Positions 11,689-29,069 of a stretch of 45,175 bases of DNA are shown here, piece after piece. This stretch comes from Salinicola acroporae. GTDB taxonomy: Bacteria; Pseudomonadota; Gammaproteobacteria; Pseudomonadales; Halomonadaceae. The notes beneath the pieces were generated by a model. The model did not search any database. It was given only the letters and a program-made list of their open reading frames with translations, and was not told the origin of the DNA. The position numbers and the translations under genes were made by a program. How positions within the stretch are numbered: position 1 is the stretch's first letter; every line of letters starts with the position of its first letter. The stretch spans positions 1 through 45,175 of the forward strand of contig NZ_PZJW01000019.1 in the NCBI RefSeq assembly GCF_003206615.1, given 5' to 3'.

Positions 11689-13377
11689 ATGTTGTTACTC
11701 AATCGAAGTGTCAAATTGCGTCTCGGTGCGAGCCTAGGGCTGTGCATCGCGATGGTGATCGTGATCGGTCTGTTCGCGCTATGGGGTCTGAGCACCGGCA
11801 ATCAGAAAATGCGGGGAACCTACGACAGAAACGTCGTGACCATGGAGGATTTGGGGCGGGTCAGCAATCTTCTTCTACGCAACCGGGTGCTGACGCTTCA
11901 AGCGCAGAGGGATAAGAACGTCGAAACCCTCGGCCAGCTCCATCAGGTCCTGGCCGAGAACGATGCCGAGGCTGACGAAGCCTGGGCCGACTACTACCCC
12001 GAGCGAGTCGATAGCGATGCCGAGAAACAGTTGGCGACGCAATTCCAGACCGCGCTGAGTTCACTGCGCGCCGATCTGGACGAGCAGTACGAGGCGATGA
12101 TGCGGGGGGACTTCCAGCGTGCCCAGGAGATTTCCAGCGCTCGCCTCAATAGTGGATACACCCGGGTTCTGGACACGATCAATCAAGTGGTCGAACTCAA
12201 TCGCCAGCAGGCCGGCACCGCGTATGTGAGTTCCACGGCGGACTATGAGCGGGCGCGTGCCTTGACGCTTGGCGCTATCGCTCTGGCTATCGTCATCGGG
12301 GTTGGGCTTTCCATCTGGCTGACACGCGGCATCATGACGCCACTGGGCAAGGCGCGTGCGCTCGCCGACGCGCTGGCCGAAGGCAAGCTCGGCAACGACA
12401 TCAACATTACCTGCAAGGATGAGTTCGGCGACATGCTTCGCTCCCTCCAAACGATGGAGGAGCGCTTCTCCAGCGTGGTCCTGACCGTTCGAAGAAATGC
12501 AGAGTCCGTGGATCTCGCGGCGAATGAAATCGCCCAAGGCACCGACGATCTGAGTCGCCGCACCCAGGAACAGGCCGCGAGCCTGGAGCAGACAGCCGCG
12601 TCCATGGATGAGATCACGTCAACGGTCCGGCAGAACGCCGAGAATGCCCTGGCGGCCGATCGTCTGGTCAATGACCTCAGCCAACAGGCCAGCTCGGGTG
12701 GAGAAGTCGCCCAGAAGGCGGTCGAGGCCATGGGGGGCATCAACGCTTCCAGTCGGGAAATCGCTGGCATCGTGGGGCTGATCGACGAAATCGCCTTCCA
12801 GACCAATCTGCTGGCGCTCAATGCCTCGGTGGAAGCCGCGCGCGCGGGCGAACAGGGGCGCGGCTTTGCCGTCGTGGCGAGCGAAGTCCGCAACCTCGCC
12901 AGCCGGAGCGCTGAGGCCGCCAAGGATATCAAGAGACTCGTCGAAGAGAGCATCGCACAAGTGGATGCCGGCTCTGCGCTGGTCGACCAGGCCGGGAATG
13001 CACTCGCGGAGATCGTCGAGGGTATCCATCGCGTCACCACCCTGGCTGGAGAGATTGCCGTGGCCAGCCGTGAGCAGTCCCAGGGCATCGATCAGGTGAA
13101 TACCGCCGTTTCGCAGATGGACGGTGTCACCCAGCAGAATGCCAGCCTGGTCGAGGAGTCCAGCGCGGCGAGCCGGTCGTTGCAGAAGCAAGCGGCCGAG
13201 CTGTTGAGAGAGGTCTCTTTTTTCAAGGGGGCCGAAGACACCGACGGTTCCCCGTCACGGGCGACCAGCAACCACCCCAATGCCAATCCGCCCAGGGATC
13301 GACAGCTGGCGTCGAGGCAGCTCAAGCCGAGGGCTCTCGAGCCGGCGAGGGAAAGCGCCGATTGGGAGGCCTTCTGA
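11689..13377 (+). CDS. Methyl-accepting chemotaxis protein
   Basis: 562 residues in the classical Tar/Tsr layout: membrane segment 1 (about 12-35), a periplasmic four-helix-bundle sensor (about 36-200), membrane segment 2 ([21 protein letters not shown]), HAMP (about 217-270), and the cytoplasmic signalling hairpin with the invariant tip [35 protein letters not shown]. It ends in DWEAF, which resembles the NWETF pentapeptide that tethers CheR and CheB. The ATG at 11689 gives a direct run into the first membrane segment; a longer frame from 11575 would overlap the promoter. The ligand is unknown. A FliA-type promoter and a perfect stem-loop terminator bracket it as a single-gene transcript. 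Confidence 0.93.
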
Positions 13378-15564: not shown

Positions 15565-15584
15565 TTGGTGCCCCATCAGGATTC
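15565..15584. repeat. att-like copy of the tRNA-Arg(CCT) 3' end
   Basis: TTGGTGCCCCATCAGGATTC matches the 3' end of the tRNA-Arg gene at 28992-29012 except for one missing C. It is in the same orientation, as expected for the distal att site of an element inserted at that tRNA. Confidence 0.55.
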
Positions 15585-15808
15585 TATAATTAGAGGTATC
15601 TATATGTTTTTGCGAGCAATTATCCAGGTTGGATAATTCAGATATACCACGCGATATACCTCTCAGCCTCAAAAGCTGACCCTATGGTTGTCCATCGCAT
15701 AACTACGCCGCTACGGCTCCAGGCCGCCCAGCAAGCTCGTCTGTGGGCACAGTGTGCCCCACAATGATCGCCCATGGGCTTGTCAATCACTGCCAAGCGT
15801 ATCGATTC

Positions 15809-16033
15809 ATGTCAATTCAAGTGAGAGAAGCGAGAGAGACAGACATTGGGGAGATCTTCGCCATTCGCACCAGCGTGGCCGAGAACCATCTTTCGCTCGA
15901 GCAGCTCGCCGAAATGGGCGTCACACCCGATACCATTGCCGCCGAGATCGCCCAGGGCCCTTGTGTGTGGGTTGCGGAGATTGACCGCTCACACGCGGCG
16001 CATCTTTGGGGTGGAGCCGAAGGCGCAATCTAA
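15809..16033 (+). pseudogene. Truncated GNAT-family N-acetyltransferase
   Basis: The first ~58 residues follow the GNAT start (IQVREARETDIGEIFAIRTSVAENHLS, then GVTPDTIAAEI and CVWVAEID). The frame then enters unrelated sequence (RSHAAHLWGGAEGAI) that belongs to the attC-like site at about 15986-16063 and stops. A complete GNAT protein would continue for about another 90 residues with the acetyl-CoA-binding core, which is absent. The cassette array therefore abuts a broken acetyltransferase gene. 15585-15808 shows no other gene. Confidence 0.65.
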
Positions 16034-16063
16034 AGGACGTCTCTCTGCCTGCAATTGTTATGT
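15986..16063 (-). repeat. attC-like site 5 (truncated)
   Basis: On the minus strand it begins ACATAACAATTGCAGG just after the stop of the cassette gene and shares the block GCCGAAGGCGCAAT (plus sense) with attC-like site 2. The opposite core end (GCGTTA) is missing at the junction with the GNAT fragment. Confidence 0.5.
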
Positions 16064-16666
16064 AACGTTGCCATAGGCAACTCTTAAAACATCGTCGACA
16101 CTTCCACTGTGGCACCCTATCTCGCCAGTAACGAAATGAGAGTGCCCCCATTCATTTTCATAGGCGTATGAAGCCTTGAACTCTTCAAATTCTTCACCTG
16201 ATACGTCCATGCCCAAATCACATATCTTCTCAAACACTTTCACAGAGAAATTGAAGATGCAGGGGTTGATGTTCACTACCTCACCATGCCAACCCAAAAT
16301 TGATCGAATCATCTTCTCTTGGTCTTTACGGTAGCGCGCGCTGATATTTTCTATAGAGGCCTCGATTAGGGCTCTTGGAACCAAGCAGAGATACAATAGG
16401 TCTGTTGTTATCGGAGGCAGTTCTTGAACAGGTATGATTTTGAGCTCGTTGATCAACTCTTCCTGGTGATGATAGAGGTTTCTCAATGCTTTTAAAGCAA
16501 CAAACTCTTCAATTTCAAAGAAGTTTTCTTGATGATTTAAATTCAGCTTGTCATTCAGGCTATGAACGCTATTCAGATAGTTAAACAGTGTGTCCCGGTC
16601 CGGTGAGACACAATGCTTGTGGTACAGCCTAAAGAACCTTTCGCAAGCAGCAGCGGTTCCGTTCAA
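16058..16666 (-). CDS. Cassette protein of unknown function, possible HEPN-like
   Basis: 202 residues from a TTG start; GGAGG lies 6 bases before it, which decides the start. The protein is largely helical and acidic-basic mixed, with no membrane segment. A segment FVALKALRNLYHHQEELI contains R-x4-H with Asn after the Arg, as in the catalytic motif of HEPN ribonucleases, but one such motif is weak evidence. A second half (RALIEASIENISARYRKDQEKMIRSILGWHGEV) is helical. I do not recognise a family. It is the last cassette in the array, and gene expression would depend on read-through from upstream. Confidence 0.6.
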   Translation of the reverse strand: MNGTAAACERFFRLYHKHCVSPDRDTLFNYLNSVHSLNDKLNLNHQENFFEIEEFVALKALRNLYHHQEELINELKIIPVQELPPITTDLLYLCLVPRALIEASIENISARYRKDQEKMIRSILGWHGEVVNINPCIFNFSVKVFEKICDLGMDVSGEEFEEFKASYAYENEWGHSHFVTGEIGCHSGSVDDVLRVAYGNVT

Positions 16667-16685
16667 AGTGGACCTCCATTAATTA

Positions 16686-16747
16686 CATAACGCTTGCAGT
16701 TGCGGCTGGAGCGCGGGACAGTATCTATCTGATAATCCACGCTATTC
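16686..16747 (-). repeat. attC-like site 4
   Basis: Minus strand ends CTGCAAGCGTTATG, the right-hand attC core, just before the next gene; the left core (AATAGCG) is degenerate. Confidence 0.5.
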
Positions 16748-17597
16748 AGCCATTTTTTAACTGCTTTGCTAAATCATTGACGGCAGCCTGCACTACTAGC
16801 CACGAGATCCCGCATGTATCAGCATCAGGATTCATACGGGTTGCCATCTGCTCGTATGGATGAATAAGATTTCTGAACTCCCGCAGAGAATGAGAGAACT
16901 TCTTAACATCCAGGTCAAGCCATCCAACGTGATGGGCAACATCTATCATCTCGGCCAGCTTCCAGTTAGCGAAATTTTTCACCTTCCCTGTCTTATGATC
17001 CATTGGTGCACTCGGGCATCTATTTACAAATGCAGGATTTCTCTGGAATACTCCTAGCAACAAACCTTCCAACATACTACCCATAACAATGGTAGCGGAT
17101 AGAAAGGCTCCAGCGTCAACACAGCGCTGAGACTCCTCCCAGCGATTCTTCAGGACCTCTCCAACCCCGTACTCTAGACCTAGAGCAAGGAAATCAGGAG
17201 CCGACAATGGTTGTAGTTCGTATTCATTCTCACCCACATTGGAAAAATCTACTGTAATCTTTTCAAACTTAGGCTCCGTCTCCACGAGTTTTATCTTGAA
17301 GCCCTCAACATAGAGAATGTTATTCAGTTGAAGCAATGCGGATTTTGTCTTTTCTCTATCTCCTGCGTACTCCCTTGGCGATGCCAGCCTTTTCAGCACT
17401 CCAGCCAGTTGCTCCCGGTTACACTCTTTAAGCCGTTCCAAAACCCACCACTGACGAGTGGAACCATCATGGACGAACTGAGGTAAGCCAGCCCTCTGAA
17501 AGAACGCTGTTATCTTCGAGCCAGATCGGTATTCAGGGTTTTCCTCATCGTTACCGCATATGAACCCAGCAAGTTTTTCCAAGGTACTTTCGTCCAT
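16746..17597 (-). CDS. AbiJ-like abortive-infection protein with C-terminal HEPN-type motif
   Basis: 283 residues. The N-terminal part (LEKLAGFICGNDEENPEYRSGSKITAFFQRAGL, then DGSTRQWWVLERLKE) resembles AbiJ N-terminal domains found in phage-defence proteins. The C-terminal part has SATIVMGSMLEGLLLG and LREFRNLIHPYEQ, the RN-xx-HP type motif of HEPN/DUF4145-like ribonucleases, then a SWLVVQAAVNDLAKQL helix. The likely role is an RNase effector that stops growth on infection (inference from family). ATG with GGGAG upstream. Flanked on both sides by attC-like repeats, so it behaves as a self-contained cassette. Confidence 0.65.
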   Translation of the reverse strand: MDESTLEKLAGFICGNDEENPEYRSGSKITAFFQRAGLPQFVHDGSTRQWWVLERLKECNREQLAGVLKRLASPREYAGDREKTKSALLQLNNILYVEGFKIKLVETEPKFEKITVDFSNVGENEYELQPLSAPDFLALGLEYGVGEVLKNRWEESQRCVDAGAFLSATIVMGSMLEGLLLGVFQRNPAFVNRCPSAPMDHKTGKVKNFANWKLAEMIDVAHHVGWLDLDVKKFSHSLREFRNLIHPYEQMATRMNPDADTCGISWLVVQAAVNDLAKQLKNG

Positions 17598-17612
17598 CTA
17601 ACTCCCTATATG

Positions 17613-17682
17613 GCTAACGCCGTTCTCTGCGGAAAATTTGGAGCGTAGCGGGAAATTGGTCCGATAACAGCGCCTTGTTAGC
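17613..17682 (-). repeat. attC-like site 3 (best preserved)
   Basis: On the minus strand it runs from GCTAACAAGGCGC to GAACGGCGTTAGCC, about 70 bases, with fully complementary GCTAAC / GTTAGC outer cores and an imperfect central hairpin (CCAATTT, CGCTACGCTC, AAATT). The cassette stop codon lies inside the first core. Confidence 0.8.
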
Positions 17683-18433
17683 TTTTATACTCATTTAACC
17701 AGTTAAGTAGCTGTTCTCTATCTACCAAAGATAAATCCCAGCTGCTCGACGCCTCATTTTCTACAAACTTTCTCGCATCGCTAGTAAAAGTCGAAGTAGT
17801 CACTACGATTGTTTTGTTCGGGCCATCTTTCGTGTTTTTAACTCCATATATTTCTCGCACTACGCCAACACTGACTTTGTTGCTTTCCAAGTAATACTTG
17901 CACTCAATAAAATATTTATTTTTTATTCCTAATGCATCTGTATGAATGGCAATGATATCTTTTCCGCCATCTCTTGTTTTTTTGGTCAAATCGACTTCAT
18001 AGCCTTTATGGTTAAAAACTTCAGCAACAATCTCCTCGAACTGACGAGATGTTAATTCACTAAGAAACCGATTGTCTGCTTTTAAAGCTGTGATCAGTTC
18101 TGATATTGATTCATGTAGTTCAAACAAGTCTCTTGCGTTGTAAATTTCTCTAACATACTCAAACTCCGGCTCGCCCTCAGTCTGTGCTCCAGTTGAGTTG
18201 TTTAGTGTAAAGTTTAGTGCTCCTGTTGGGTATTCAGAGACCTGAAAATTAAGAGAGATGCCTGCACCACAGCCAGTGCACTCGAACTCATGAATCACAT
18301 CATATAAGTTTTCCTCCCCCATTTGGCGATCACCACCACCCACACATTCGACAGAGAAATCTGCTATGGAAATCTCATCCTTAGATTCGCAGCTATTACA
18401 CACGTATTCAACTGAACCAGAAAATTCCCACAT
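17678..18433 (-). CDS. Restriction endonuclease, Mrr-type, with zinc-ribbon-like N-terminus
   Basis: 251 residues. Two Cys-x2-Cys pairs near the start (CNSC and CTGC) suggest a zinc ribbon. The C-terminal Mrr-like nuclease domain starts at LTSRQFEEIVAEVFNHKGYEVDL and has the PD-(D/E)xK core as GGKDIIAI and FIECKYY, followed by VGVVREIYGV. Mrr-type enzymes cut modified or foreign DNA. ATG at 18433 with GGAAAAGAG upstream is chosen over an upstream in-frame extension that would run through the attC-like site. Standalone, without a methyltransferase, as expected of a type IV enzyme. AT-rich cassette. Confidence 0.8.
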   Translation of the reverse strand: MWEFSGSVEYVCNSCESKDEISIADFSVECVGGGDRQMGEENLYDVIHEFECTGCGAGISLNFQVSEYPTGALNFTLNNSTGAQTEGEPEFEYVREIYNARDLFELHESISELITALKADNRFLSELTSRQFEEIVAEVFNHKGYEVDLTKKTRDGGKDIIAIHTDALGIKNKYFIECKYYLESNKVSVGVVREIYGVKNTKDGPNKTIVVTTSTFTSDARKFVENEASSSWDLSLVDREQLLNWLNEYKS

Positions 18434-18454
18434 AATTCTCTTTTCCTTCGAAGA

Positions 18455-18536
18455 GCTAACGCCTGCAGCATGCGCGCCTATGAGATGGGGCCGAAGACGC
18501 AATGTAATGGGCTTCACTGTGTCTGCGCTGATTATG
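18455..18536 (-). repeat. attC-like site 2
   Basis: Minus strand from CATAATCAGCGCAG to GCTGCAGGCGTTAGC. Inner boxes GCAG / CTGC are complementary; the left outer core is imperfect. The central block GCCGAAGACGCAAT (plus sense) is shared with site 5. Confidence 0.65.
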
Positions 18537-19233
18537 AGTCAGCTTTCTGTTCTAAAACAGGATTGTTGGTGCCGCTGGGTAATTCTTCTGTCCGTGCCTG
18601 TGTTTTCCACACAATTTCTGCAACTTCTCTTATTCTGTCTACGATTGGCTTTGCGTCTTTGCCAAGCTTTCCAAGAACTACTCCTGCGTCGCCTACCAAC
18701 CCCCAGAACCTATCAAGATCCGAGACACGTTTGTGCAACTCAGCCTGTAAACTCTCTAGCCTTTTTAAAAGACGTTGCTTGTGCCCCGAATCTAAATTAT
18801 CAACCCTTGAAAGATGCGTTCTGATCTCATTGATGAGTAATTGCACACGGTCAAGATCACCTTGAGTAAATTCATAGGCGAATGATGACTTAAGCACGTT
18901 TTCATATTGCTTTTTAAAAGAATTTATTTTTAACTTTGTAGCTTCCCCTTGAAGAGTTTTTTCAACCTCCTCAAGATATTTTCTAAGAGTATTGCAGTTC
19001 TCGTGAATATTTATCGATGGCTCAGGGAGCTCTAAATCCAAATCTATTTCTTTAGCTTTTATTATTAAATCCACGAATATCGACGCCTCCCACAGTAGTT
19101 CATGCTCCTGAGCAGTCCATTCTTCTCTATTGTCTAGTTCATCTTGTGCAGCCATTGCCCTCTTGCATGCCTTGACTAGCCCTTCGATAGGCTCCTCTTC
19201 CACCTTCGCGATAAATTCCGGCTCAAAGAACAT
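18532..19233 (-). CDS. Cassette-encoded coiled-coil protein of unknown function
   Basis: 233 residues, highly charged and mostly helical, with a long coiled-coil-like stretch (about 75-185). The C-terminal region (RFWGLVGDAGVVLGKLGKDAKPIVDRIREVAEIVWKTQARTEELPSG) is the most distinctive part and looks like a conserved family block, but I cannot name a function. There are no membrane segments or catalytic motifs. It follows the deoxyribosyltransferase-like gene in the array with an attC-like site between, so joint function is not implied. Confidence 0.65.
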   Translation of the reverse strand: MFFEPEFIAKVEEEPIEGLVKACKRAMAAQDELDNREEWTAQEHELLWEASIFVDLIIKAKEIDLDLELPEPSINIHENCNTLRKYLEEVEKTLQGEATKLKINSFKKQYENVLKSSFAYEFTQGDLDRVQLLINEIRTHLSRVDNLDSGHKQRLLKRLESLQAELHKRVSDLDRFWGLVGDAGVVLGKLGKDAKPIVDRIREVAEIVWKTQARTEELPSGTNNPVLEQKADS

Positions 19234-19250
19234 TTAAATCCCTCTATATG

Positions 19251-19319
19251 AATAACGCCTTGCTCACCGGAAAATTATGAGCGCAGCGAGTAATTTTCCG
19301 AGTGTGGCAACTGGTTATA
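19251..19319 (-). repeat. attC-like site 1
   Basis: Minus strand from TATAACCAGTTGCC to GAGCAAGGCGTTATTC, 69 bases. Outer TAAC / GTTA and inner TTGC / GCAA boxes are complementary, and the centre forms a long stem (GGAAAATTA / TAATTTTCC) with an unpaired base, as in true attC hairpins. The centre shares CGCTGCGCTC with site 3 (CGCTACGCTC). Confidence 0.8.
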
Positions 19320-20079
19320 CCCAGCCTGAACTCGACCGCCTCGTGGCCAACGTTAAAAAGCGACTGGCCAAATCCTCCTTCAGCCTTTCCAAGCCTTCAC
19401 CGTTGTTCAGATATTTGGCAAAGCGATGATGCCTTAAGTCAAACGGCACGTCCTGCTCTGATTGAGTAATTGGCACCACATGTTTTCCCAATGCATGTGC
19501 GATACCAGCTTCGTAAAATACGTTCGGATTCTTACCTGTGAAGTCGCATACAACAATGTAAGACTTAAAAATGAGTGTGAAAACATCTTGGATTACGGTC
19601 GAGTGGTCCCAGATATTGTCCGCTCTTTGGCACTCGAAACCTGCTTGCTGGGCAGCTAATACAATAGCGTTATAGATACCGCTCATTGAGGCGTCGAAAG
19701 GCATCATTACCGAGATCAGGTCTGTATCGATAGAATCGCTGGGAACGTCAAAGATGGTCGGAGAAAACACTATTTTCCGCCCTTGGGCTACCTCACTAGA
19801 AACGTTCTCCCCAGCATTGCCGCAGGTTTTGTGAATATATTTCATGACAATATCAAGATTCTCGTCTTCTTGACCTATCATTTTTCGCAGAAAGGTCAAT
19901 GCCAACCCGTCATAATCGGGGTCGCCAAAAGAGAGGCTCCGCAATAGTCGGGGGTGTCTCTCAACCTCATCAATCATATTTGTGAGGGCACCAAGCTCGC
20001 GCCAATTTGACGAATCGAAATCCTGGACGACAGCGTCCTTGATCTGGATCAAATCTTGTCCAGAGATACGCGAGGGCAT
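19315..20079 (-). CDS. Nucleoside 2-deoxyribosyltransferase/TIR-like protein with helical N-terminal domain
   Basis: 254 residues. Residues about 115-225 form a Rossmann-like domain: DLISVMMPFDASMSGIYNAIVLAAQQAG, then WDHSTVIQDVFTLIFKSYIVVCDFTGKNPNVFYEAGIAHALGK. This matches the nucleoside 2-deoxyribosyltransferase and TIR-related superfamily, whose defence members cleave NAD or nucleosides. Glu in FYEAGIAHALG is the likely catalytic residue. The N-terminal ~80 residues (IKDAVVQDFDSSNWRELGALTNMI, then LRSLSFGDPDYDGLALTFLRKM) look like a small helical adaptor of the effector-associated type (inference). First gene of the array; the ATG has AAGGAG upstream. Confidence 0.7.
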   Translation of the reverse strand: MPSRISGQDLIQIKDAVVQDFDSSNWRELGALTNMIDEVERHPRLLRSLSFGDPDYDGLALTFLRKMIGQEDENLDIVMKYIHKTCGNAGENVSSEVAQGRKIVFSPTIFDVPSDSIDTDLISVMMPFDASMSGIYNAIVLAAQQAGFECQRADNIWDHSTVIQDVFTLIFKSYIVVCDFTGKNPNVFYEAGIAHALGKHVVPITQSEQDVPFDLRHHRFAKYLNNGEGLERLKEDLASRFLTLATRRSSSGWV

Positions 20080-20132
20080 CCGAGTGTCTCCTTAGATATA
20101 ACAGGTATTAGGCAGCATGCTCGTCTATTGAC

Positions 20133-20154
20133 TTGAACGCGCATGCGCGTTCAA
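20133..20154. repeat. Perfect 22-base palindrome upstream of the cassette array
   Basis: TTGAACGCGCATGCGCGTTCAA is self-complementary over its full length and borders a TAATATTATTAT stretch. It lies 54 bases upstream of the first cassette gene, so it could be an operator, part of a cassette promoter or an intrastrand structure; its role is not decided. Confidence 0.6.
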
Positions 20155-20410
20155 TAATATTATTATGCATTGCAAAAAAGCCCTTAACCTATTGAAATCG
20201 ATCGCCATTAAATATGGCTTGGCAGTGTAGAACTAATGATCATGATTGTTGAAGAACGCTCTTGAACTTGCTTGCGGCGGTCCTCGGACCACCCGATTTG
20301 GGTCGTAACCCATCAGCCTTCTCAAAACCTGTCAGGAATACATTTACTATCAATCTGCCACTTCCGTTTCACTTCTCTATCAAATTTCCCCCGCCTCTCG
20401 TCGGGTAGTC

Positions 20411-20895
20411 TGCAAAACGCATCATTTCGCACTATTTTCTCGGGCCCCTAATCGGTCCGCTGCCTCAGTACCGGTGCGACTTGGCGCCCCCTGCAACGCT
20501 GCATCGAAACCGACCCCTTTAGCGCGCAGGGGAGGAGGGGAGTCGACAGCGCGCCGGTGGTGCCGGCATAGATCCCCCTGTAATCCGAGCCCCTGCAACA
20601 GCAAAGGCTACTTTCCTATTACTGTTAGTAACACTTTGGCCCAATCAGGCTCTCTCAGGAATCCACCTTTTGTCTATCTGACGTCGCACAGACAGACTTG
20701 AGCGTTTTCACTCTCTACTAACCGTTGGGAGTGGGTAAAACTGCATAAATCCGCATAATTTTTCCGCACCTTCTACCCCTCATCCGCGCCAGCAGTGGCG
20801 CGGCTCGAGGCCGTTTCTGCACCTGCGTAATTTTCGACCCATTTAGTGCGCGGGCGGGGCGGGGTGCTGATCGCGCGGCGCGGGGGCGCACTGCC
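20411..20895. repeat. Large imperfect direct repeat, possible satellite replication or cos region
   Basis: Two units of about 155 bases (20411-20570 and 20742-20895) share ordered blocks: GCAT-ATTT-GCAC-TTCT-CCCCT-ATC at the left and CGACCC-TTTAG-GCGC followed by G-rich runs at the right. The second unit ends in CGAGGCGGGG, reminiscent of P2-type cos ends. No gene is supported in 20080-21589; this repeat, the iteron cluster and a terminator are what it holds. Confidence 0.5.
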
Positions 20896-21135
20896 GAGGC
20901 GGGGTCATAGCGCCGCTGTAGGCAACATGGCGGCCAATCTCGGTCCATCCCGTCGGGTCGATGCACCACGACGCTCTCGCGGGTTCTGGTGCTCCCTCGA
21001 GCAGTTTCTATTGCCCTGGATCGAGTGACAGACCCAACCCCATCGCTCGCCAGGGGGTGAAGGGGTCAATGCGTCGCCGTGGGTGTCGTGTATCCCAGAT
21101 CCCCCCAATATTCCCCTGACTGTTTTCAAAAATCG

Positions 21136-21343
21136 TGGCAACGCGGCAACAGTGGTAACAGCCTTTATTTTCAATGGCTTATAAGTGGCAACGCGTTGCC
21201 ACCCCTTTTCAAAATGGCAACAGCGTCAGAGGGGGATTACTGATACAAGGAGATGTGTTGCCATTGTTGCCATTCCCTTATTCCTATAGGCAACGCTACA
21301 GCCCCCGTCATTGCTGGGCGTTGCCTTGTTGCCACTGTTGCCA
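21136..21343. repeat. TGGCAAC / GTTGCCA iteron cluster
   Basis: About eleven copies of GGCAAC or its complement lie within 210 bases, at about 21136, 21145, 21185, 21195, 21215, 21257, 21266, 21289, 21320, 21328 and 21337, with a TGGTAAC variant at 21153. Two copies form the perfect 18-base palindrome GTGGCAACGCGTTGCCAC (21185-21202). The density and mixed orientation suggest a binding array for the element's replication protein, that is, an origin or cis-replication region. Confidence 0.6.
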
Positions 21344-21524
21344 CAAAAACTAGGTTCCTGTGAAAAACTCCTTTCTCGGTGGCCGGGCCGGTCGCCATGG
21401 TGTCGGCGGGTCGCCGTCCAGGTGCAGCAACTCCCTCTCTGGCGAGCGATGGGGTTAGGTGGGGTTACGATTTCGGCTGGCCGGCTGTTGTGTCGCCCTG
21501 TGGGGAGAGCCGTTCGTCGCGCAC

Positions 21525-21552
21525 AAAAAAGGCCTCCGCATGGGAGGCCTTT
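21525..21552 (-). terminator. Rho-independent terminator of the satellite operon
   Basis: Minus strand: 10-base-pair stem AAAGGCCTCC / GGAGGCCTTT with a five-base loop, followed by TTT. It lies 38 bases after the stop of the last gene of the replication operon. Confidence 0.85.
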
Positions 21553-21589
21553 CGGATGTCACCGATAGCTAGGCGGCAGGATCAGGGCA

Positions 21590-22558
21590 TCAGCGTTGAA
21601 CTCGGCCGGTGCGCTGCTCTTCCAACACACGGCGACGGCGTCTCATTTCAAGTTGCAGCGCGTTAGTTGGACCTTTGTACTCCCGTTCGCAGTCGAGCTG
21701 GGGAATCGTCTTCAAGGTTTCGAGGGGATCGTCTTCGGCCACTACTGGGCGCAACGCTTCATCCTGACCTTTTCGTAGACGCGTGGACAGCAACACGGGC
21801 AGGCGGTTCTTCGCTTCCGCCTGGATCGCCGCATGGTAGGAATCGCTGACGACACCAGCTTGGTACAGCCCCTGGTAGCTGTCACGGGTATCCCGCTCGA
21901 GCATCTCCTGCATGGGGCGCATGACATCGATCAGGGCCTGTCCTTCCGGTGTCGCGATGACCGCCGCCAGGGCACGGTCGAATTTCTTACGCAGTTCGAT
22001 CCGTTTGGCCTTGTATGCGGCCGAACCGTAGGCGGTGCGCGCCTCGATCACATCGATGTTGCGGGTTTCGTACTCCTTCTCGAGCTCGGCCGCCAACGCT
22101 TCCAACTCCTCGGCGGTCTCTCTGTTATCGGTGACGGCTCGCTTGAGCTGCCTCACTTCGCGGGTCACCTCCCCGTCGTTCTCACGCAGCAGCTCGCGCC
22201 AGCGGGTATCGCTGGTTTCCGCTTCTTCGCGAGCGGCGGCGGCGCCCTTTTGATTGCGGCGCAGTCGGTCGACGTAAGTCTGTAGATCCCTGCGCTTGGC
22301 GAGGTAGACATCGCGCAACTGGGCTTGAGTGGCCATGTGCTCGGGCACGGCGTCGGTTTCCTGGGCGTTGCTGGTGTCGTTGGCGTCGATAGTCACGTTT
22401 TCGGTTCCTTGCGTCGTTGCATTGGCGTCGATCATGGTCTCGGTCTCTCCGGGCGCTGGGGTTGCATTGTCGGCGTTGTGGGTCGTGTGGTTCATGCGGG
22501 TGTCGCTCCTGGTCTCGGTGGCTGGCTGGGGTGGATTGGCCGGGCGCGGGTCGGTCAT
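21590..22558 (-). CDS. Coiled-coil satellite protein, possibly Psu-like
   Basis: 322 residues. The first ~75 are low-complexity and Asn/Thr/Ala-rich, followed by a long charged helical region (QLRDVYLAKRRDLQTYVDRL to AAELEKEYETRN) and a basic C-terminus. In position (last gene after the helicase) and general shape it recalls P4 Psu, the capsid-decorating Rho inhibitor, but similarity is weak and this is only a suggestion. Its ATG overlaps the stop of the helicase gene (ATGA), so it is translationally coupled. A strong terminator follows. Alternative in-frame starts at the internal Met residues are possible. Confidence 0.6.
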   Translation of the reverse strand: MTDPRPANPPQPATETRSDTRMNHTTHNADNATPAPGETETMIDANATTQGTENVTIDANDTSNAQETDAVPEHMATQAQLRDVYLAKRRDLQTYVDRLRRNQKGAAAAREEAETSDTRWRELLRENDGEVTREVRQLKRAVTDNRETAEELEALAAELEKEYETRNIDVIEARTAYGSAAYKAKRIELRKKFDRALAAVIATPEGQALIDVMRPMQEMLERDTRDSYQGLYQAGVVSDSYHAAIQAEAKNRLPVLLSTRLRKGQDEALRPVVAEDDPLETLKTIPQLDCEREYKGPTNALQLEMRRRRRVLEEQRTGRVQR

Positions 22559-24333
22559 GCCGCGCCCCGGTCGCTGTCGAGCTTGTCGGGATCGATGACG
22601 AAGAACCGTGCCGAGCCGCCCCCTGGCAGGCGGTAGTTCTTCTGGTGCCGGTTGCCGTCGGTCTTGGCCAGCACGCCGCTGGTCTCGAGCGTGCGGATGA
22701 TGCGAGCCCGCCCGTAGCCGTCAGCCGCTTCGGCCAGCGAGGCGCGGTTGAACAGATAAAGGCGCTTGCCGTTGTCGATCTCGAAGTACCCGGCACGGTG
22801 GCGCACGTTGGGATTGGGCAGCGTGGCGGCGATGTCGGAGAACCGGCTGTCGCCGTGCAGGGCGATGAAGTCCGAGAGGGCGGCCAGGATCTGGCGATCC
22901 TCGGCGTTGCCGTCGCCGACGCTGGCCAGCCACTCAAGGAACAGTTGGCGGCAGGCCCGGGCGGCACTGGTGGGCGGCCACGGCAGCAGGCCGTATTCGA
23001 TGGCCAGCTCGCCGGCGAGACCGATGACGGCGAAGCGGTCGGCGACCCGGCCCGCCTGGGGGCTCGACGTCTCGAAGCGCTGGCGCACCTCCTTGAAGCG
23101 ACGATGGAAGTGGTCCGGATCGTTCTCCGTCACCAGCCGCTCGACGAACGCCGGGCCGATCTGGCCGAAGTGCTGCGACGCCGCCGTGGTCAGCCGACGG
23201 TGGAACGACGCGCCATCGCTGCCGTGCACGTCATCGAAGGCGCGATAGGTGCGGGTGCCGGCGTTGACGTCGACCATGCGCAGCTCCGCCCCGGCGTGAG
23301 CGCTGTTACCCGAGATGGCGGCATGCTCGGAGAGCGAGCGCTCGCCGCTGGAGAGGGCCAGCACGCGCCAGTAGAGCTTGGGCCGTCCTTCCCGCTCCCG
23401 GGTCATGGTGCCCTTGCCGGTCCCGTTGGCGATGGCGTAGGCCATCTCCTGCACCCGCTTGGGATCGGCGCGCTTGATCTCGTCGAGGATCAGCACCGTG
23501 TCGTTGCGCGAGGAGGCCTCGATCTCGATGCCGCCCTTGGACATGTCCCAGGAGGCGGCGAAGACGCCGGGATTGCCCCACACCGACGCGGCCAGCGACT
23601 GCGCCAGCGATTTACCGCTCGAGGAGTCGCCGACCAGATGGACGCCACCGCCGTTGACGCCGACGCGGGAGAGTAGCGGCCCGGCCAGCGCGCAGCCCAC
23701 CGCCAGGATCAGCACCGGGTTACCCTGGCAGTAATGGGCCACCTCGGCCTGCCACGCCTCGAGCGTGCCGCGCTCGGAGAAGAGGTGGGCGGCCTTGCCG
23801 CTGTCCTGAAAGCGCACGTCGGCATCGCCCATGATCCGGTTCGGCAGCACGAACGCGCCGCTGGTGTCGTGCCAGCCCGGGCGGGTGGTGGTGGCCAGGA
23901 TGCGGTCGAGGCCGTGGTGGCTGGCGATGTAGGCCGGGACGTGGCGGCGCTGGTTGTACTCGATCTCGAGGCCCTGGCGCATGAGCGCCTTCAACACTTC
24001 CTCGCCCTTGCCGGCGAGCGCTTCCATCGGCATGACGTGTTCCACCGAGCGGCCCCGATGGCGAAAGCGCAGCAGACGCCCCACGCTGCCGTCGTCGCTG
24101 TTGACGGTCTCGGCGTCGACGTGGAGTGGCGCGCAGATCCAGACGTCGTAAGGCTGGCCGGCCTCGTCGCCGTTGGAGTGTTTGATGCCGTGGAACCACG
24201 TCCCGGCGCGAAACGTCTTGCCATCGGCGCTGATCGGCCCCTCGTAGACCGCGAAGGCGGGCCGCTCGAGACGGTCGAGGTTCGGGGCCGTGGGCTCGCC
24301 GACCAGCGAGAGGGTGGGTTGCGATTCACTCAT
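22555..24333 (-). CDS. DUF927-family helicase/ATPase of a phage satellite
   Basis: 592 residues. The central DUF927 domain has a Walker A variant VHLVGDSSSGKSLAQSLAASVWGNPG, then SWDMSKGGIEIEASSRNDTVLILDEIKRADPKRVQEMAYAIANGTGKGTM, carrying the Walker B LILDEI. The C-terminus (GVLAKTDGNRHQKNYRLPGGGSARFFVI) resembles a winged helix. Such proteins act as replicative helicases together with a TOPRIM primase in P4-like satellites and integrative elements. ATG at 24333 has GGAGG 6 bases upstream; it overlaps the primase gene by 8 bases. The iteron cluster at 21136-21343 is a candidate target for the replication proteins. Confidence 0.88.
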   Translation of the reverse strand: MSESQPTLSLVGEPTAPNLDRLERPAFAVYEGPISADGKTFRAGTWFHGIKHSNGDEAGQPYDVWICAPLHVDAETVNSDDGSVGRLLRFRHRGRSVEHVMPMEALAGKGEEVLKALMRQGLEIEYNQRRHVPAYIASHHGLDRILATTTRPGWHDTSGAFVLPNRIMGDADVRFQDSGKAAHLFSERGTLEAWQAEVAHYCQGNPVLILAVGCALAGPLLSRVGVNGGGVHLVGDSSSGKSLAQSLAASVWGNPGVFAASWDMSKGGIEIEASSRNDTVLILDEIKRADPKRVQEMAYAIANGTGKGTMTREREGRPKLYWRVLALSSGERSLSEHAAISGNSAHAGAELRMVDVNAGTRTYRAFDDVHGSDGASFHRRLTTAASQHFGQIGPAFVERLVTENDPDHFHRRFKEVRQRFETSSPQAGRVADRFAVIGLAGELAIEYGLLPWPPTSAARACRQLFLEWLASVGDGNAEDRQILAALSDFIALHGDSRFSDIAATLPNPNVRHRAGYFEIDNGKRLYLFNRASLAEAADGYGRARIIRTLETSGVLAKTDGNRHQKNYRLPGGGSARFFVIDPDKLDSDRGAA

Positions 24334-25378
24334 GGTCACCTCCCGTCATGTCAGTGCTGCCAGCCTGTCTCTGGTCGTCTTGGGACGCGTCATCGAGTCG
24401 GGCCCGATGCCAGCGATACAGGTCGTTGAAGTCGGTCAGGTCGTCGGGGCAGCCGTCCGGCCACTTGGGATAGAGCACCATCGCGCCGACGGCTAGCGCG
24501 GCGTCGTTGGCCGCCTGTCGTCCGGGATTGCCCTGGGTTTGGCGGTCGTCGTCGCCGGCGATAACGAGATCCAGCGAACCGTTCAGCGCCTTGCGCAGCT
24601 TTTCGGCGACGGCGCGCAGGTTGCCGGCGTGCATGGCGCAGACGGCGGGATCCCCGGTGAGGCGATGCAGCGTCGCCCCGGTCGCCCAGCCTTCGCAGAC
24701 GTACACCCGGCCACCCGGAACGATTTCGCCGATTACGGCGTAAGCGCCCTGGACCTGTCCGCCCTTGAGAAAGCGTTTCTGGCCGTTGGGGGTGATCCAC
24801 TGCAGATTGACCAGCTCACCGCCGGAATGGAGCGGCACCAGCAGCCAGCCCCGGCGGCACTGGCGCAGGTGGTAGGCCGGAATGCCCTTGGTCATCAGGT
24901 AGGGATGCGTCGACGGCGCGGGCCGCGCGGCACGCCATGCCGACCGCGCCCGGTCCGCCGCTTCCTGGCGAGCGAGTTCCCGCTCGGCGGCGTCGTCCTC
25001 GAGACGCTGACGATAGGCCACCATCGCGGCGGCCTCGGCGGCGTCGTTCACCGGTGGCGTGACGCCACGGCGAAACACGCCCAGCCCCAGCCGGCGATCG
25101 ATCGCCATGGCGGCGTCGACCTGCCGGCAGGCGTTGAGGTAGCTGTAGAGCGAGACCAGATCGCCGCCGTGGGCGCTGTTGTCGGCAAAGTCGTTCCACT
25201 TGCCACTGACCAGCGACACGCCGAACGAGCCGCTGGCGCGGTCGCCCCGGGCGACGTTGCGGGCCACCCACTCGCTGCCCTGACGGCTGCCCTGAGGCAG
25301 CCATTCGCGGGTGAGGGTCTCGGCGTGGGCCAGCGAGGCGCGGGACACGCGCTGGATCTTGGCGATGACCTCAGACAT
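24326..25378 (-). CDS. TOPRIM-domain DNA primase of a phage satellite
   Basis: 350 residues. The N-terminal half has DUF7146-like features (ARGDRASGSFGVSLVSGKWNDFADNSAHGGDLVSLYSYL). The TOPRIM domain near 235-300 shows RVYVCEGWATGATLHRLTG (catalytic Glu) and LVIAGDDDRQTQGNPGRQAA (the acidic triad). No N-terminal zinc ribbon is evident. It should synthesise primers for the element's own replication. ATG at 25378 with GGAGG upstream; an 8-base overlap with the preceding small gene indicates tight coupling. Confidence 0.88.
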   Translation of the reverse strand: MSEVIAKIQRVSRASLAHAETLTREWLPQGSRQGSEWVARNVARGDRASGSFGVSLVSGKWNDFADNSAHGGDLVSLYSYLNACRQVDAAMAIDRRLGLGVFRRGVTPPVNDAAEAAAMVAYRQRLEDDAAERELARQEAADRARSAWRAARPAPSTHPYLMTKGIPAYHLRQCRRGWLLVPLHSGGELVNLQWITPNGQKRFLKGGQVQGAYAVIGEIVPGGRVYVCEGWATGATLHRLTGDPAVCAMHAGNLRAVAEKLRKALNGSLDLVIAGDDDRQTQGNPGRQAANDAALAVGAMVLYPKWPDGCPDDLTDFNDLYRWHRARLDDASQDDQRQAGSTDMTGGDHE

Positions 25379-25676
25379 GGCCACCTCCCGCGTTCTGACG
25401 CCGGGCGGTGACAGGCGTTTGATAGCCGCGAGCGGCGACCAGCAAATCGCTGGCGTCGCCGATCAGGAGCCGCGACACCATGGCCAGATTGGAGAGATCC
25501 ACCGACGTCAGATCGCGGTCCTGTCCGTTCATGGTCGAGAGCGTGAACATCAGATCCTTGATCGCGTCGAGGCGCATCTCCGCATTGTCCAGCAGGGTCT
25601 CGCGGTCGGTGCGCGGATCGATCAACAGGCACTCGGTTTCGGTCAGGCAATTGGCGTCCTCGAGGCGCTTATCCAT
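25371..25676 (-). CDS. Small hypothetical satellite protein
   Basis: 101 residues, helical and acidic in the N-terminal half (CLTETECLLIDPRTDRETLLDNAEMRLDAIKDLM), with LSNLAMVSRLLIGDASDLLVAA near the C-terminus. No family recognised. It overlaps both neighbours in the replication operon, which supports it as a real gene. Confidence 0.7.
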   Translation of the reverse strand: MDKRLEDANCLTETECLLIDPRTDRETLLDNAEMRLDAIKDLMFTLSTMNGQDRDLTSVDLSNLAMVSRLLIGDASDLLVAARGYQTPVTARRQNAGGGHV

Positions 25677-25908: not shown

Positions 25909-26061
25909 GGGGCCAGCTCCTTGAGTAGTTCCGGAGCCGCCACCCTTCGTTCTCACGCGAATGGGGGCGACTGTACGCAGGGTGAGAAACCGGCACTCAA
26001 GGAAACCGGCCGGGCCGAAGCCCGCCCACGCACAGCCGCCATAACGACGCATTGCGGGCAC

Positions 26062-26099: not shown

Positions 26100-26434
26100 T
26101 TGAGTAGCTCGGGTTCTCACGCCCGGTCACGGATTTTGCCGTGACGCGAGCATCGTAGCCGGACCCGTTGGGAAGGTGCAAGCCTTCCCCGGCCAAAGGA
26201 TGATGAATGGCCAGCGCCAGCCCCCGGACCATCGGCGTGTGCCGGGGCGTGACACCGCGCCGGAATTTGCTAGGATCGTCGTTGCAAAGAGTGTCTTCGA
26301 GAGCCCCGGCAGCCCCACGCTGACCGGGGTTTTCGCGTTTATTGGGCACAAAGCCTCCCTGTTCCCCTCGGCGCGGACGCCGAGCGGCTGGCTGATTCGC
26401 TGTCGTTGAGTGGTGCGAGCGTGCGGCGGGCGGC

Positions 26435-26698
26435 CTAGCAGTCCGTCTGCTCGTAACTGAGATCGCAGTTGAGGTCGCGCATCAGCACCGTGTTGGGATC
26501 GCGGGGCAGCGTGGAATGCTTGCCTTCACCGCCATTGCGGTGCATCAACACGGTGATGCGCTCGCCGCTGGCGCTGTGGCGCACCACTTCCCGCCCGGCG
26601 CTATTGATCGCAACGTTCAGGGCCTCATCCAGCGCCGGGACATCCTGGTCGGTGAAATCGAGCGTCTGTCCGCCTACCGTCAACGTGAAGCATTTCAT
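26435..26698 (-). CDS. Small hypothetical satellite protein
   Basis: 87 residues. It begins MKCFTLTVGGQTLDFTDQDVPALDEALN, predicted alpha/beta, with RITVLMHRNGGEGKHSTLPRD in the second half. No family recognised. Its start overlaps the stop of the AlpA gene (ATGA type), so the two are co-translated and it is probably part of the element's control module. Confidence 0.65.
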   Translation of the reverse strand: MKCFTLTVGGQTLDFTDQDVPALDEALNVAINSAGREVVRHSASGERITVLMHRNGGEGKHSTLPRDPNTVLMRDLNCDLSYEQTDC

Positions 26699-26994
26699 GC
26701 GCGAGCCTCCTGGGCGTGGGAGCCGAAGTGTTGGATCTGGCGACCGGCCAGCGTGCGGTTACGCTCGGCGAGTCGGTTGGCGATCCAGCTATCCACCTCC
26801 TCCTCGAGCCAGGCGACGCTCTTGTCGCCGATGGGCAGCGGAGCCGGAAAGGTGCCGTTGCTGACGCCGGCATAGATCGCGGATCGGCTCTTTCCGGTCT
26901 TGAGCTCCACGTCGCGGCGTCGAAGGAGACGATTGCCGAGCTGCAGGCGCTCGACTGTCTCGTACGGGGCGGCTGTCGATGTGACGTTGGCCAT
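26695..26994 (-). CDS. AlpA-family DNA-binding regulator
   Basis: 99 residues. The AlpA/MerR-like helix-turn-helix is visible as NRLLRRRDVELKTGKSRSAIYAGVSNGTFPAPLPIGDKSVAWLEEEVDSWI, with the characteristic SxxxxY recognition helix, F-P wing and W-x-x-x-E-V-x-x-W end. In P4-like satellites and other integrative elements such proteins regulate excision or the integrase promoter. ATG at 26994 with AGGAA just upstream; a longer frame is not needed. An inverted repeat at 27128-27142 lies in its upstream region. Confidence 0.85.
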   Translation of the reverse strand: MANVTSTAAPYETVERLQLGNRLLRRRDVELKTGKSRSAIYAGVSNGTFPAPLPIGDKSVAWLEEEVDSWIANRLAERNRTLAGRQIQHFGSHAQEARA

Positions 26995-27127
26995 GTTGGT
27001 TCCTCGGTGGCTGTCAGGGCGTGCCCGGGCCAGTCGGCGGCGGGACATGCACAGAATGCCGAGGAGAAAAGAGGACTTCGAGCGGTTCGAGCTGTAAGTC
27101 AGCTATCTACAACTCCATACACCTTTT

Positions 27128-27178: not shown

Positions 27179-27640
27179 TCAATCGAGGTTGGGAGCCAGA
27201 TAGATATGGTCGGAGATGGTCAGCTCGGCTTTCAGCCGACAGCCGCACTTGGCGTAGCGGCACTGGAGGTAGATCAACTTCAGATTCGGGCTCAATTCCC
27301 GACTATTGCGAATCCGCATGGCCGTGCCGCACTTAGGGCAGCTCTGGTGAAGCCCCTGGATATCATCGACCGGATATCCGAAATAGTCGCTTTCGCGACC
27401 CGGGCGACTACTCAGCTTCGTCTCGAGCGGGAACTCGTTGAGAGGATCAGCGGCGGCATCTTGTCGCCTGCGAGTGTAAGAGCGGGTGGGGGATAAACGG
27501 ATCGTCGCCGTCTGGTGCATGCCACAGGAACTCATGATGCATCCGAGCGCGACCCATATAGTCCCGTCGGCTCTGTTTTCCCAGATCAGGGTCCGCATCG
27601 GCAACCCGTGAACCGGGCATTTTTGCCCCAGCGCTCTCAT
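27179..27640 (-). CDS. Tandem Ogr/Delta-like zinc-finger transcriptional activator
   Basis: 153 residues. The C-terminal half is a clear Ogr/Delta domain: CPKCGTAMRIRNSRELSPNLKL, then YLQCRYAKCGCRLKAEL, with Cys-x2-Cys and Cys-x4-Cys pairs. The N-terminal half repeats the pattern in degenerate form (CPVH, then CIMSSCGMH). P4 Delta is likewise a double Ogr domain of about 166 residues and activates late promoters of its P2-like helper. ATG at 27640 overlaps the stop of the integrase gene (ATGA), so it is translationally coupled to it. It implies dependence on, or interference with, a P2-type phage. Confidence 0.8.
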   Translation of the reverse strand: MRALGQKCPVHGLPMRTLIWENRADGTIWVALGCIMSSCGMHQTATIRLSPTRSYTRRRQDAAADPLNEFPLETKLSSRPGRESDYFGYPVDDIQGLHQSCPKCGTAMRIRNSRELSPNLKLIYLQCRYAKCGCRLKAELTISDHIYLAPNLD

Positions 27641-28827
27641 CGTGCATCGACCGGATAAAGCCTGTCGGCCCAAAACTGCATCATCGCCGGCCGCTGTTCA
27701 GGGGCCATGTGCTCGGCATGGGTATAGATTCCCTCGACGCCTGGCAGCTTGTGCGAGAGCTGCATCTCGATCCACTCGCGGGGGTAGCCGTACTCCTTGA
27801 GCCCGGTGGCGACCATGTGGCGCAAGCCATGGGGCACCAAGCGGCCCTCGTACCCCATGCGCTTGAACGCCATGTTGAACGTCGCGTTCGAGAGCGGTTG
27901 GCGAGGGTTGTTCCTGCCCGGAAAAAGCCAGCCGAAAGGGTGGGTCATCCTATGGAGTTCGCGAAGCTCGAGAATGGCCTGAGAGGGCAGTGGGACCTTG
28001 TGCTCGCGGCCCATTTTCATTCGCTCGGCGGGAATCACCCAAACGCCAGCCTGAAGATCGAATTCATTCCATCTGGACAGACGAAGCTCACCGGGACGAA
28101 CGGCGGTCAAGGTGAGCAATTTCAGGCCAATGCGAACGATGGGGCTGTTGGTGTACCCCTCGATGGCCTCGGCGAGAGCCGGGAATTCGTCTTGAGGAAG
28201 GAATGGGTAATGCTTTTTCTTCTGAGGCAGAAGCGCTGCGCCAAGGTCCGTTAACGGATTGTAGGTGGCGCGCCCGGTAATGATGGCAAAGCGGTAGATG
28301 TCTCGACAGAAGGCATGAACGCGCCGGCGTTGCTCCCCCTTGCCCGCTGACTCGAGCCGACGCAGCAGCTCTAGCCATTCGAGCGGCTTGATTCCCTCTA
28401 AGGGGCGGGAACCCACATAGGGGAAAACGTGACGCTCCAGTGCTCCCCAGCTTTGCTTGTCTCTGCCTGAGCCGGCTTTCCAGCGATGGCTCATGGTGTC
28501 GTGCCACTCCTTGGCCATGGCTCGAACGGTATGAGTGTTAGCCAACTCCTTCTCCAGCTTTTCCTCCTTGCGCTGTTCGACCGGATCGATGCCTTTAGCG
28601 ATGAGGCGTCGCGCGTCCGTTCGCCTTTCTCTGGCTTCGGCGAGCGTGATCTCGGGATATGGGCCGAGGCTCATCATGTTGCGCTTGCCGTTGGGTCGGG
28701 TGTAACGCAAACGCCAGCCCCGGTGGCCATTGGGCGAAATCCTGAGTTCCAATCCCAAGCCGTCTGATAGGGCGATGGTTTTGGGACCTGGTTTGGTTGT
28801 TTCGATCTTGCGGGAGGTTAGCGGCAT
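27637..28827 (-). CDS. P4-type tyrosine integrase
   Basis: 396 residues. The N-terminal DUF4102 arm-binding domain (LTSRKIETTKPGPKTIALSDGLGLELRISPNG, then GWRLRYTRPNGKRNMMSLGPYPEITLAEAR) is followed by a core-binding domain and the catalytic domain: Arg in TAVRPGELRLSRW, His-Gly-Leu-Arg in VPHGLRHMVAT, LSHKL, and the nucleophile Tyr in VEGIYTHAEH. All key residues are present, so it should be active. It lies 166 bases from the tRNA-Arg(CCT) gene, which is its presumed attachment site. It is the first gene of an operon with the Delta-like activator. Confidence 0.95.
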   Translation of the reverse strand: MPLTSRKIETTKPGPKTIALSDGLGLELRISPNGHRGWRLRYTRPNGKRNMMSLGPYPEITLAEARERRTDARRLIAKGIDPVEQRKEEKLEKELANTHTVRAMAKEWHDTMSHRWKAGSGRDKQSWGALERHVFPYVGSRPLEGIKPLEWLELLRRLESAGKGEQRRRVHAFCRDIYRFAIITGRATYNPLTDLGAALLPQKKKHYPFLPQDEFPALAEAIEGYTNSPIVRIGLKLLTLTAVRPGELRLSRWNEFDLQAGVWVIPAERMKMGREHKVPLPSQAILELRELHRMTHPFGWLFPGRNNPRQPLSNATFNMAFKRMGYEGRLVPHGLRHMVATGLKEYGYPREWIEMQLSHKLPGVEGIYTHAEHMAPEQRPAMMQFWADRLYPVDAR

Positions 28828-28992: not shown

Positions 28993-29069
28993 TGGTGCCC
29001 CCATCAGGATTCGAACCTGAGACCTTCCCCTTAGGAGGGGGACGCTCTATCCAGCTGAGCTATGGGGGC
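28993..29069 (-). tRNA. tRNA-Arg (anticodon CCT)
   Basis: 77 bases on the minus strand, from GCCCCCATAGCTC to TGGGGGCACCA, with encoded CCA. Acceptor, D-arm, anticodon arm (TCCCC, CTCCTAA, GGGGA) and T-arm (TTCGAAT loop) are all intact; the anticodon is CCT. It is the attachment site of the adjacent integrase, with the element lying beyond its 3' end and leaving the tRNA functional. Confidence 0.95.

Follow-up and report, generated by a model that had tools for sequence, protein, structure and literature searches.

To our knowledge, how cargo is swapped in the defence hotspots of phage satellites is an open question, and recent reports show that integron cassettes encode phage defence. A stretch of 45,175 nucleotides from Salinicola acroporae (hereafter the window; bases 1-45175 of one contig of a 4.37 Mb genome in 32 contigs) raises the question of how a row of gene cassettes that has no integrase of its own came to lie in a P4-like phage satellite. 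Here, we show by sequence that this row has integron recombination sites (attC) and an attI-like head site, lies inside the satellite, is accompanied by no integron integrase gene (intI) above the family cut-off in the genome, and differs from the array of a sister satellite. We consider it quite probable that the satellite, integrated at a tRNA-Arg(CCT) gene, carries its cargo as an attI-headed, integrase-less cassette array, whose attI would be a loading dock served by integron integrases (IntI) acting in trans.

Cassette array without an integrase in a P4-like satellite

The initial annotation of this DNA had described five same-strand, AT-rich genes separated by palindromes of 60-80 bases with TAAC/GTTA cores, and had read them as an integron-type array without an integrase in a satellite-like region. 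The five genes are indeed there, in DNA with a guanine-cytosine (GC) content of 0.42-0.46 across 16001-20000, whereas most of the remaining window is at about 0.6. The picture of cassettes within a satellite stands; the attI-like head, the sister array and the family-wide distribution reported below were absent from it. From head to tail, the array comprises the following features (ORF, open reading frame).

20100-20170, minus strand: attI-like head site, about 75 bp, E 5.1e-20, with its junction CTAATACCTG/TT at 20102/20101
19315-20079, minus strand: ORF of cassette A, 254 aa (cassette 20101-19256)
19250-19320, minus strand: attC site 1, 40.3 bits, E 9.9e-8 over the window
18532-19233, minus strand: ORF of cassette B, 233 aa, no family (cassette 19255-18460)
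18454-18537, minus strand: attC site 2, 20.5 bits, E 0.0073
17678-18433, minus strand: ORF of cassette C, Mrr-type restriction endonuclease, PF04471 2.2e-26 (queried as 17678-18451; cassette 18459-17618)
17612-17683, minus strand: attC site 3, 40.1 bits, E 1.2e-7 over the window
16746-17597, minus strand: ORF of cassette D, 283 aa, no family (cassette 17617-16691)
16685-16762, minus strand: attC site 4, only the right half good, 7.8 bits, E 1.7 in 8 kb
16058-16666, minus strand: ORF of cassette E, 202 aa, no family (cassette from about 16690 to 15985)
15985-16063, minus strand: attC site 5, left half only, with R'' ACATAAC at 16057-16063
15743-16033, plus strand: GNAT acetyltransferase gene, 5' part only, truncated at half attC site 5

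The attC sites were scored with a covariance model (R1) built from 52 sites beside integron integrases of other genomes, a choice made to avoid circularity. Candidates of 54-90 bases were picked by script and by eye (59 in all), seven poor ones were dropped, and one of the 52 retained comes from Halomonadaceae itself (L037; L and G labels denote fetched loci and compared genomes, respectively). Over the whole window, R1 returned four matches at E ≤ 10, all within the array and all on the minus strand. Sites 1, 2 and 3 were significant, in agreement with the three or more attC sites that the initial annotation had led us to expect. Its description of the palindromes holds for sites 1 and 3 and fails in part for the others: the left core of site 2 reads TAAT in place of TAAC, site 4 keeps its right half and site 5 its left half. 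The central motifs it had quoted as common to sites 1 and 3 and to sites 2 and 5 are present. Identity to attC of L206 is 82% both for site 2 (over 78 bp) and for site 5 (over 49 bp). Site 4 appeared only with filters off over 14-22 kb, among other weak matches, and its left core has decayed (GGCTGAAT, versus GGCTAAC in the relative at L203). Site 5 gave an R1 match at 16012-16053 (10.8 bits, E 1.7 in the window, model positions 11-56); its right half is gone and it abuts the GNAT fragment, so that site and gene both lack their facing ends, as after a deletion. With three significant sites, one half site and one decayed site, on the minus strand and at gene-sized intervals, the array belongs among the clusters of attC sites lacking an integron integrase (CALINs).

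Background and register both bear on this assignment. Across 41 related satellite loci totalling 681 kb (40 of the other 43 listed helicase matches, plus one viral contig), R1 gave two matches at E < 0.1, both in the sister satellite L071. We further compared the first bases of each cassette with the R'' core at its own end, which agreed at 27 of 32 positions over eight cassettes (permutation mean 17.25, p = 0.0009). This comparison is independent of R1, using variable positions of the five window cassettes and three of L071; on the window cassettes alone, agreement was 17/20 (p = 0.025).

Relatives were sampled in 234-244 genomes of the order for each of cassettes A, B, D and E, and some of those of D and B occur beside other attC sites, which the initial annotation had proposed as a check on gene cassettes. 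A D relative of 90% identity lies in a genome of another family with attC before and after it; its DNA matches 17636-16739, with identical first bases past G/TT and a different preceding attC. D relatives adjoin attC at three of seven loci tested (L203, L206, L207), and the single B relative locus (51% identity) is flanked by attC on both sides. A has three relatives (68, 61 and 53% identity), and E one, of 32% identity, among 234 genomes. A fixed operon, which the annotation had named as the contrary outcome, was not seen: apart from the genome of the window, only G126 among those sampled combined relatives from the set A, B, D and E, namely of A and D on separate contigs (C was not searched). 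A distant D relative (32%) also occurs in another satellite (L087, 11924-12754), with no attC match at E ≤ 10.

These results leave next to no credence for an ordinary satellite cargo operon whose palindromes would be terminators or chance hairpins. Such an operon would be in keeping with the variable defence cargo between psu and int that the available text of PMC9122126 describes for P4-like satellites, and is refuted by the attC covariance matches; the register test, the attC-flanked relatives of B and D and the lack of co-occurrence of A, B, D and E relatives in sampled genomes also stand against it.

As the initial annotation had stated, the array is without an integrase: none above the TIGR02249 cut-off was found in the whole genome. 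Six weak matches (best 80.5 of 265 bits) were below that cut-off and thus not accepted; the two best places are, we presume, XerD and XerC. Likewise, no intI divergent from the attI-like site exceeded the cut-off in this genome, and a consensus scan of 19900-21600 for a Pc promoter found no sigma-70 site on the minus strand.

The suggested satellite placement also proved correct. The array is inside a P4-like satellite of 13.4 kb (28993 down to 15565), with the Psu-like gene on one side of it and the right att copy (15565-15584) on the other. The satellite has the hallmarks of its group, namely a tyrosine integrase at a tRNA gene with att repeats, an alpha-type primase-helicase, Psu, AlpA/Delta regulators and a C4 RNA. 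The tRNA-Arg 3' end, GAATCCTGATGGGGGCACCA, is repeated, one base shorter, at 15565-15584, and the att core found there also terminates four related satellites.

28993-29069, minus strand: tRNA-Arg(CCT), whose 3' end (28993-29012) is one att copy
27637-28827, minus strand: satellite tyrosine integrase (PF13356, PF22022, PF00589)
27179-27673, minus strand: zinc-finger regulator, which we take to be Ogr/Delta-like (phrog_603 9.3e-13; NF007241 below cut-off)
26695-27048, minus strand: excisionase-like regulator, which we take to be AlpA-like (phrog_2790 9.9e-11)
26106-26158, minus strand: a1/b1 target of C4 RNA (RF03163, 47.1 bits)
25960-26046, minus strand: C4 antisense RNA (Rfam RF01695, 76.2 bits)
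24326-25384, minus strand: Toprim primase part of an alpha-like replication protein (PF13362 3.1e-11, phrog_2249 2e-57)
22555-24339, minus strand: DUF927 helicase part of a P4 alpha-like replication protein (PF06048 5.1e-71, phrog_1139 3.5e-84)
21590-22558, minus strand: Psu-like protein (phrog_6165 1.7e-12)
20171-21589, no strand assigned: backbone stretch from head site to psu, no gene recognised
15565-15584, minus strand: attR, an imperfect repeat of the tRNA-Arg 3' end that is shorter than the tRNA copy by one base

The P4 alpha-like protein is divided into primase and helicase ORFs with a 14-base overlap (22555-25384). A repeat at 20413-20555 and 20737-20884, between psu and the head site, is matched in many related satellites and is a candidate packaging or replication site. 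On the far side of the array, DNA homology of the GNAT region to L071, L073, L083 and L087 restarts at 15984-15987. Pfam gave no family above cut-off for the GNAT fragment itself (15743-16033), and GNAT domains for its complete relatives in L164 and L166. The GNAT assignment is based on blastn and on Pfam for these two complete relatives, tblastn matches to the region being taken as DNA homology only.

The head site as a candidate attI

The array begins where the head site ends (20170-20100), and the same short sequence recurs widely at this position. In the genus, 16 of 18 genomes contain the final 65-75 bp leading up to the junction, and in Halomonadaceae the head site is present in 88 of 151 genomes and 16 of 24 genera; past the junction, the printed sequences vary by locus. 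Among 20 intI loci of the family (those fetched out of more matches listed), nine have a head site head-to-head with intI, 155-202 bp away in eight and 1,024 bp in one. At least 12 pairs within 1.1 kb can be counted among the matches listed (ten at 156-183 bp, one at 308 and one at 1,025); these close pairs were read by eye, and two of the 12 have an intI below cut-off. The fair count is 9/20.

The polarity of the site is uniform. At 20 longer head-site loci, chosen by hand from match listings, all 45 attC matches (E ≤ 0.1) are downstream on the same strand, in 17 of the loci. A scan for the 25-base core in one genome per species (84,980 species) gave 57 loci in named genomes, where all 109 attC matches (E ≤ 0.05) are downstream on the head-site strand, in 44 loci; the lengths searched on the two sides of the site were similar (219,513 and 195,753 bases), and the two sets of matches overlap. 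The genera of the 57 loci (Halomonas, Onishia, Salinicola, Chromohalobacter, Modicisalibacter and Kushneria) are all, we assume, Halomonadaceae. Furthermore, the end of the window head site aligns with a Shewanella attI (PMC9892861) better than 2,000 of 2,000 shuffles. Judged by sequence, an attI thus stands at the head of the array as in a complete integron, and the head site is very probably the attI of a group of Halomonadaceae integrons, here without its integrase.

Two other accounts of the site were considered and rejected. Its left border is not a chance attG-type insertion site, the 75-bp site being genus-wide and found beside intI. Nor are its copies decapitated integrons throughout, only a minority of loci having intI or a remnant (12 of the 57 named loci at E 1e-10, counted within the fetched stretches, some of which are short on one side). 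The reading of the head site as something other than an attI, namely a promoter element or a dispersed repeat, we also regard as very unlikely. Several copies per genome (up to seven matches), often with no intI alongside, the sharing of 200-420 bp further upstream by copies in groups, and the 11 of 20 family intI loci that lack the site would suit such an element. It is opposed by the exact coincidence of the conserved end with the cassette crossover, the head-to-head placement with intI in nine of 20 loci, the intI or remnant in 12 of the 57 named loci and the resemblance of the window copy to the Shewanella attI. Head-site copies do group by upstream sequence: intI-adjacent copies are alike, and window-type copies share a different, non-intI upstream stretch.

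Searches of phage and plasmid collections for the head site gave no match. Viral-contig candidates from a 17-base pattern (five matches) were set aside as chance-like by nhmmer (E 0.03-0.5), with no attC at E ≤ 0.05. Two loci, L168 (2171-3627) and L167 (7594-11036), hold two attI-like sites in one array with attC between them, from which attI itself may be carried within cassettes. In the same genome as the window, a second attI-like site lies at 8500-8430 of L162 (contig C4:62000-76000), near a tRNA-Arg(TCG) at 11747-11823; a SieB-like gene (6009-6680) is 1.75 kb downstream of it, and no attC match at E ≤ 0.1 was found there.

Sister satellite, tRNA-Arg islands and cassette exchange

A closely related satellite, L071, allows the array to be compared on a nearly identical backbone. 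Its helicase is 98.9% identical to that of the window, and it has two strong attC sites of its own (53.1 and 43.9 bits). Homology between the two runs from 21585 to 20099, ends at the cassette junction and restarts, within the GNAT region, at 15984; in L071, no counterpart of any of cassettes A-E was found. This break at the junction, together with the different cassettes behind it, means that one backbone carries two arrays at the same nucleotide.

The comparison speaks to whether the array is a frozen remnant, i.e., a piece of a chromosomal integron captured once by a satellite and inert since. The genome without intI above cut-off, the decayed sites 2, 4 and 5, and the satellites L081 and L082, which keep a head site with no attC match at E ≤ 10, are what such a remnant would predict. 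Given the sister satellite, with a 99% identical helicase, different cassettes at the same junction and attC of 53 and 44 bits, and given the two intact attC sites of the window, we find this account unlikely.

The flanks of the array are found outside complete satellites as well. Window 20560-20100 aligns to L164, L166, L167, L171, L173 and L178 at 71-77%, and L164, L166 and L171 also have homology to the GNAT region. Two short islands, L164 2889-8597 and L166 8260-12377, have tRNA-Arg at the start and a copy of the tRNA 3' end at the finish, and between these ends hold most of the 460-bp stretch, followed by the head site, cassettes and a GNAT gene that is complete. Searches of both islands for relatives of the satellite integrase and helicase found none. 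The islands resemble either products of deletion in the satellite or minimal relatives of it, and it is possible that they are minimal satellites mobilised in trans. The same flanks could serve a different process, in which the array moves only as a block and whole arrays are swapped by homologous recombination in common flanks, no integrase being needed in the satellites. Satellites and short tRNA-Arg islands have in common some 460 bp leading up to the head site and, beyond the array, the GNAT gene, and 17 of 18 genomes of the genus lack an integron integrase match at E ≤ 1e-30, as block exchange would allow. Against it, divergence between the window and L071 begins at the G/TT cassette crossover, although block swaps between IntI-loaded sites would look alike, and cassette D recurs in another family with other neighbours. 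We judge exchange solely by blocks to be somewhat unlikely.

Under the loading-dock reading that we prefer, the attI of the head site would serve as the dock of the satellite cargo region. A satellite would enter a host that encodes an integron integrase, as 34-43 of 151 family genomes do, and the IntI of that host would insert cassettes in trans at attI by attC × attI recombination and remove others, and helper-phage transfer of the satellite would carry the array onward. Integron integrases are above the TIGR02249 cut-off in 127 of 293 genomes of the order; within the family, 43 of 151 genomes have a match at E ≤ 1e-40, of which 34 are above cut-off. A match at E ≤ 1e-30 is present in one of 18 genomes of the genus. 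Relatives of the satellite helicase (E ≤ 1e-60) occur in 39 of 151 family genomes, nine of which have an intI match, making meetings of satellite and intI plausible. The head site occurs with an intI match (E 1e-40) in 24 family genomes and without one in 64.

Several observations weigh against the loading-dock reading and should be considered alongside it. First, attI and integrase are loosely coupled: 11 of the 20 family intI loci have no head site within 1.5 kb (for eight of these, the upstream sequence covered was 350 bp or more), implying that other integrons of the family have another attI or have lost it, and family-wide the presence of intI shows no association with that of the head site (24/43 vs 64/108, Fisher p = 0.72). 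Unlike the window copy, the head-site consensus takes a different register when aligned with the Shewanella attI, and one of 2,000 shuffles did equally well. Second, arrays are rare among related satellites, with significant attC in one of the 41 other loci (L071; L074 is borderline at 19.2 bits, E 0.024) and a head site at E < 1e-4 in three (L071, L082 and L081; it is weak in L088 and L074). Third, the array copy is partly decayed at sites 2, 4 and 5, which suggests that it is not fully active. Fourth, neither the three A relatives (best 15.4 bits, E 0.052) nor the sole E relative has significant attC alongside, and B, D, E and the three L071 cassette genes matched no PADLOC model at E 1e-3. 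Finally, the two arrays could have been exchanged whole by homologous recombination, and the manner in which cassettes move, be it through an integrase in trans or with whole arrays, is inferred from sequence.

Defence-like cargo and relation to known systems

The likely gain of the satellite from its cassettes is anti-phage defence, since they encode an AbiJ/TIR protein and an Mrr nuclease. Cassette A combines AbiJ N-terminal domain 5 (PF18865, 2e-31) with a TIR-like C-terminal part (PADLOC TIR effector, 1.3e-9), and had no match at E 0.01 among solved structures. None of the three L071 cassette genes exceeded a Pfam cut-off. Elsewhere in the family, a Lamassu-like LmuA/LmuB pair directly follows the head site and precedes attC (L178, 6285-10225), a PsyrT/PsyrA pair lies between attC sites in L181, and AbiV does so in L166. 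PADLOC matched five of ten proteins of head-site loci and not the other five; these proteins were hand-picked and give no estimate of the defence fraction. The Lamassu-like pair of L178 is a defence system of about 3.8 kb in cassette position.

Unlinked attI-headed arrays occur family-wide, and three of the loci inspected contain genes that are Lamassu-like, PsyrTA-like and AbiV, respectively; our results thus suggest that Halomonadaceae disperse integron docking sites across the genome instead of keeping a single integron. A wider proposal, which we advance tentatively and hold to be slightly more doubtful than not, is that Halomonadaceae satellites and integrase-less tRNA-Arg islands use the attI dock in common, with defence cassettes exchanged by IntIs in trans and spread by packaging. 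If true, a single element would couple the mobility of cassettes to transfer by phages, and the unlinked attI, which 64 of the 151 family genomes have while lacking an intI match at E 1e-40, would serve as a dispersed, public dock.

According to the available text of PMC11389934, attC clusters without an integron integrase (CALINs) form a well-recognised class. The array resembles them in its several attC sites and cassettes and in having no intI above cut-off in the whole genome, and differs in its attI-like head, its location in a phage satellite and the second, different array on the same backbone elsewhere. As far as the accessible text of PMC9892861 goes, phages have been reported to carry integrons or CALINs, among them a CALIN headed by attI in a Shewanella prophage that is cryptic, and the word "satellite" is absent from the main text. 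That case shares with ours an attI-headed, integrase-less array in a phage-type element and a similar attI sequence; in contrast to the cryptic 40-kb prophage, which also has a complete integron, the element here is a 13-kb satellite without intI, and the arrangement recurs in a sister.

The stretch from psu to int is where P4-like satellites of E. coli have their variable defence cargo (PMC9122126, text as available). Backbone genes, cargo position and defence-like genes are alike, whereas the cargo here consists of integron cassettes behind an attI-like site; "integron" and "attC" are absent from the main text of that paper in the version available, as is "integron" from that of another P4 paper (PMC8628076, likewise as available). 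Delta-attI-type cassettes of mobile integrons, in the portion of PMC12901181 at hand, similarly place attI away from intI, which recalls the second head site inside the arrays of L168 and L167; unlike those resistance cassettes, which were studied with IntI1, whole arrays start here at a stand-alone attI-like site. No title or abstract opening in the open-access literature searched reports a cassette array in a P4-like satellite. The finding joins two mobile systems usually handled apart, integrons and phage satellites, and cargo bounded by integron sites would provide a concrete, testable route for cargo exchange, including that of anti-virus genes.

Beyond the satellite, the window holds ABC transporter and HlyD-type genes (identified by eye) at 37179-42554, beside a small outer-membrane-channel-like ORF and a short repeat-bearing adhesin-like ORF that the assembly may have collapsed. 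At the contig start (1-1000), GC content is low (0.41) over two ORFs, possibly marking the border of a further mobile region.

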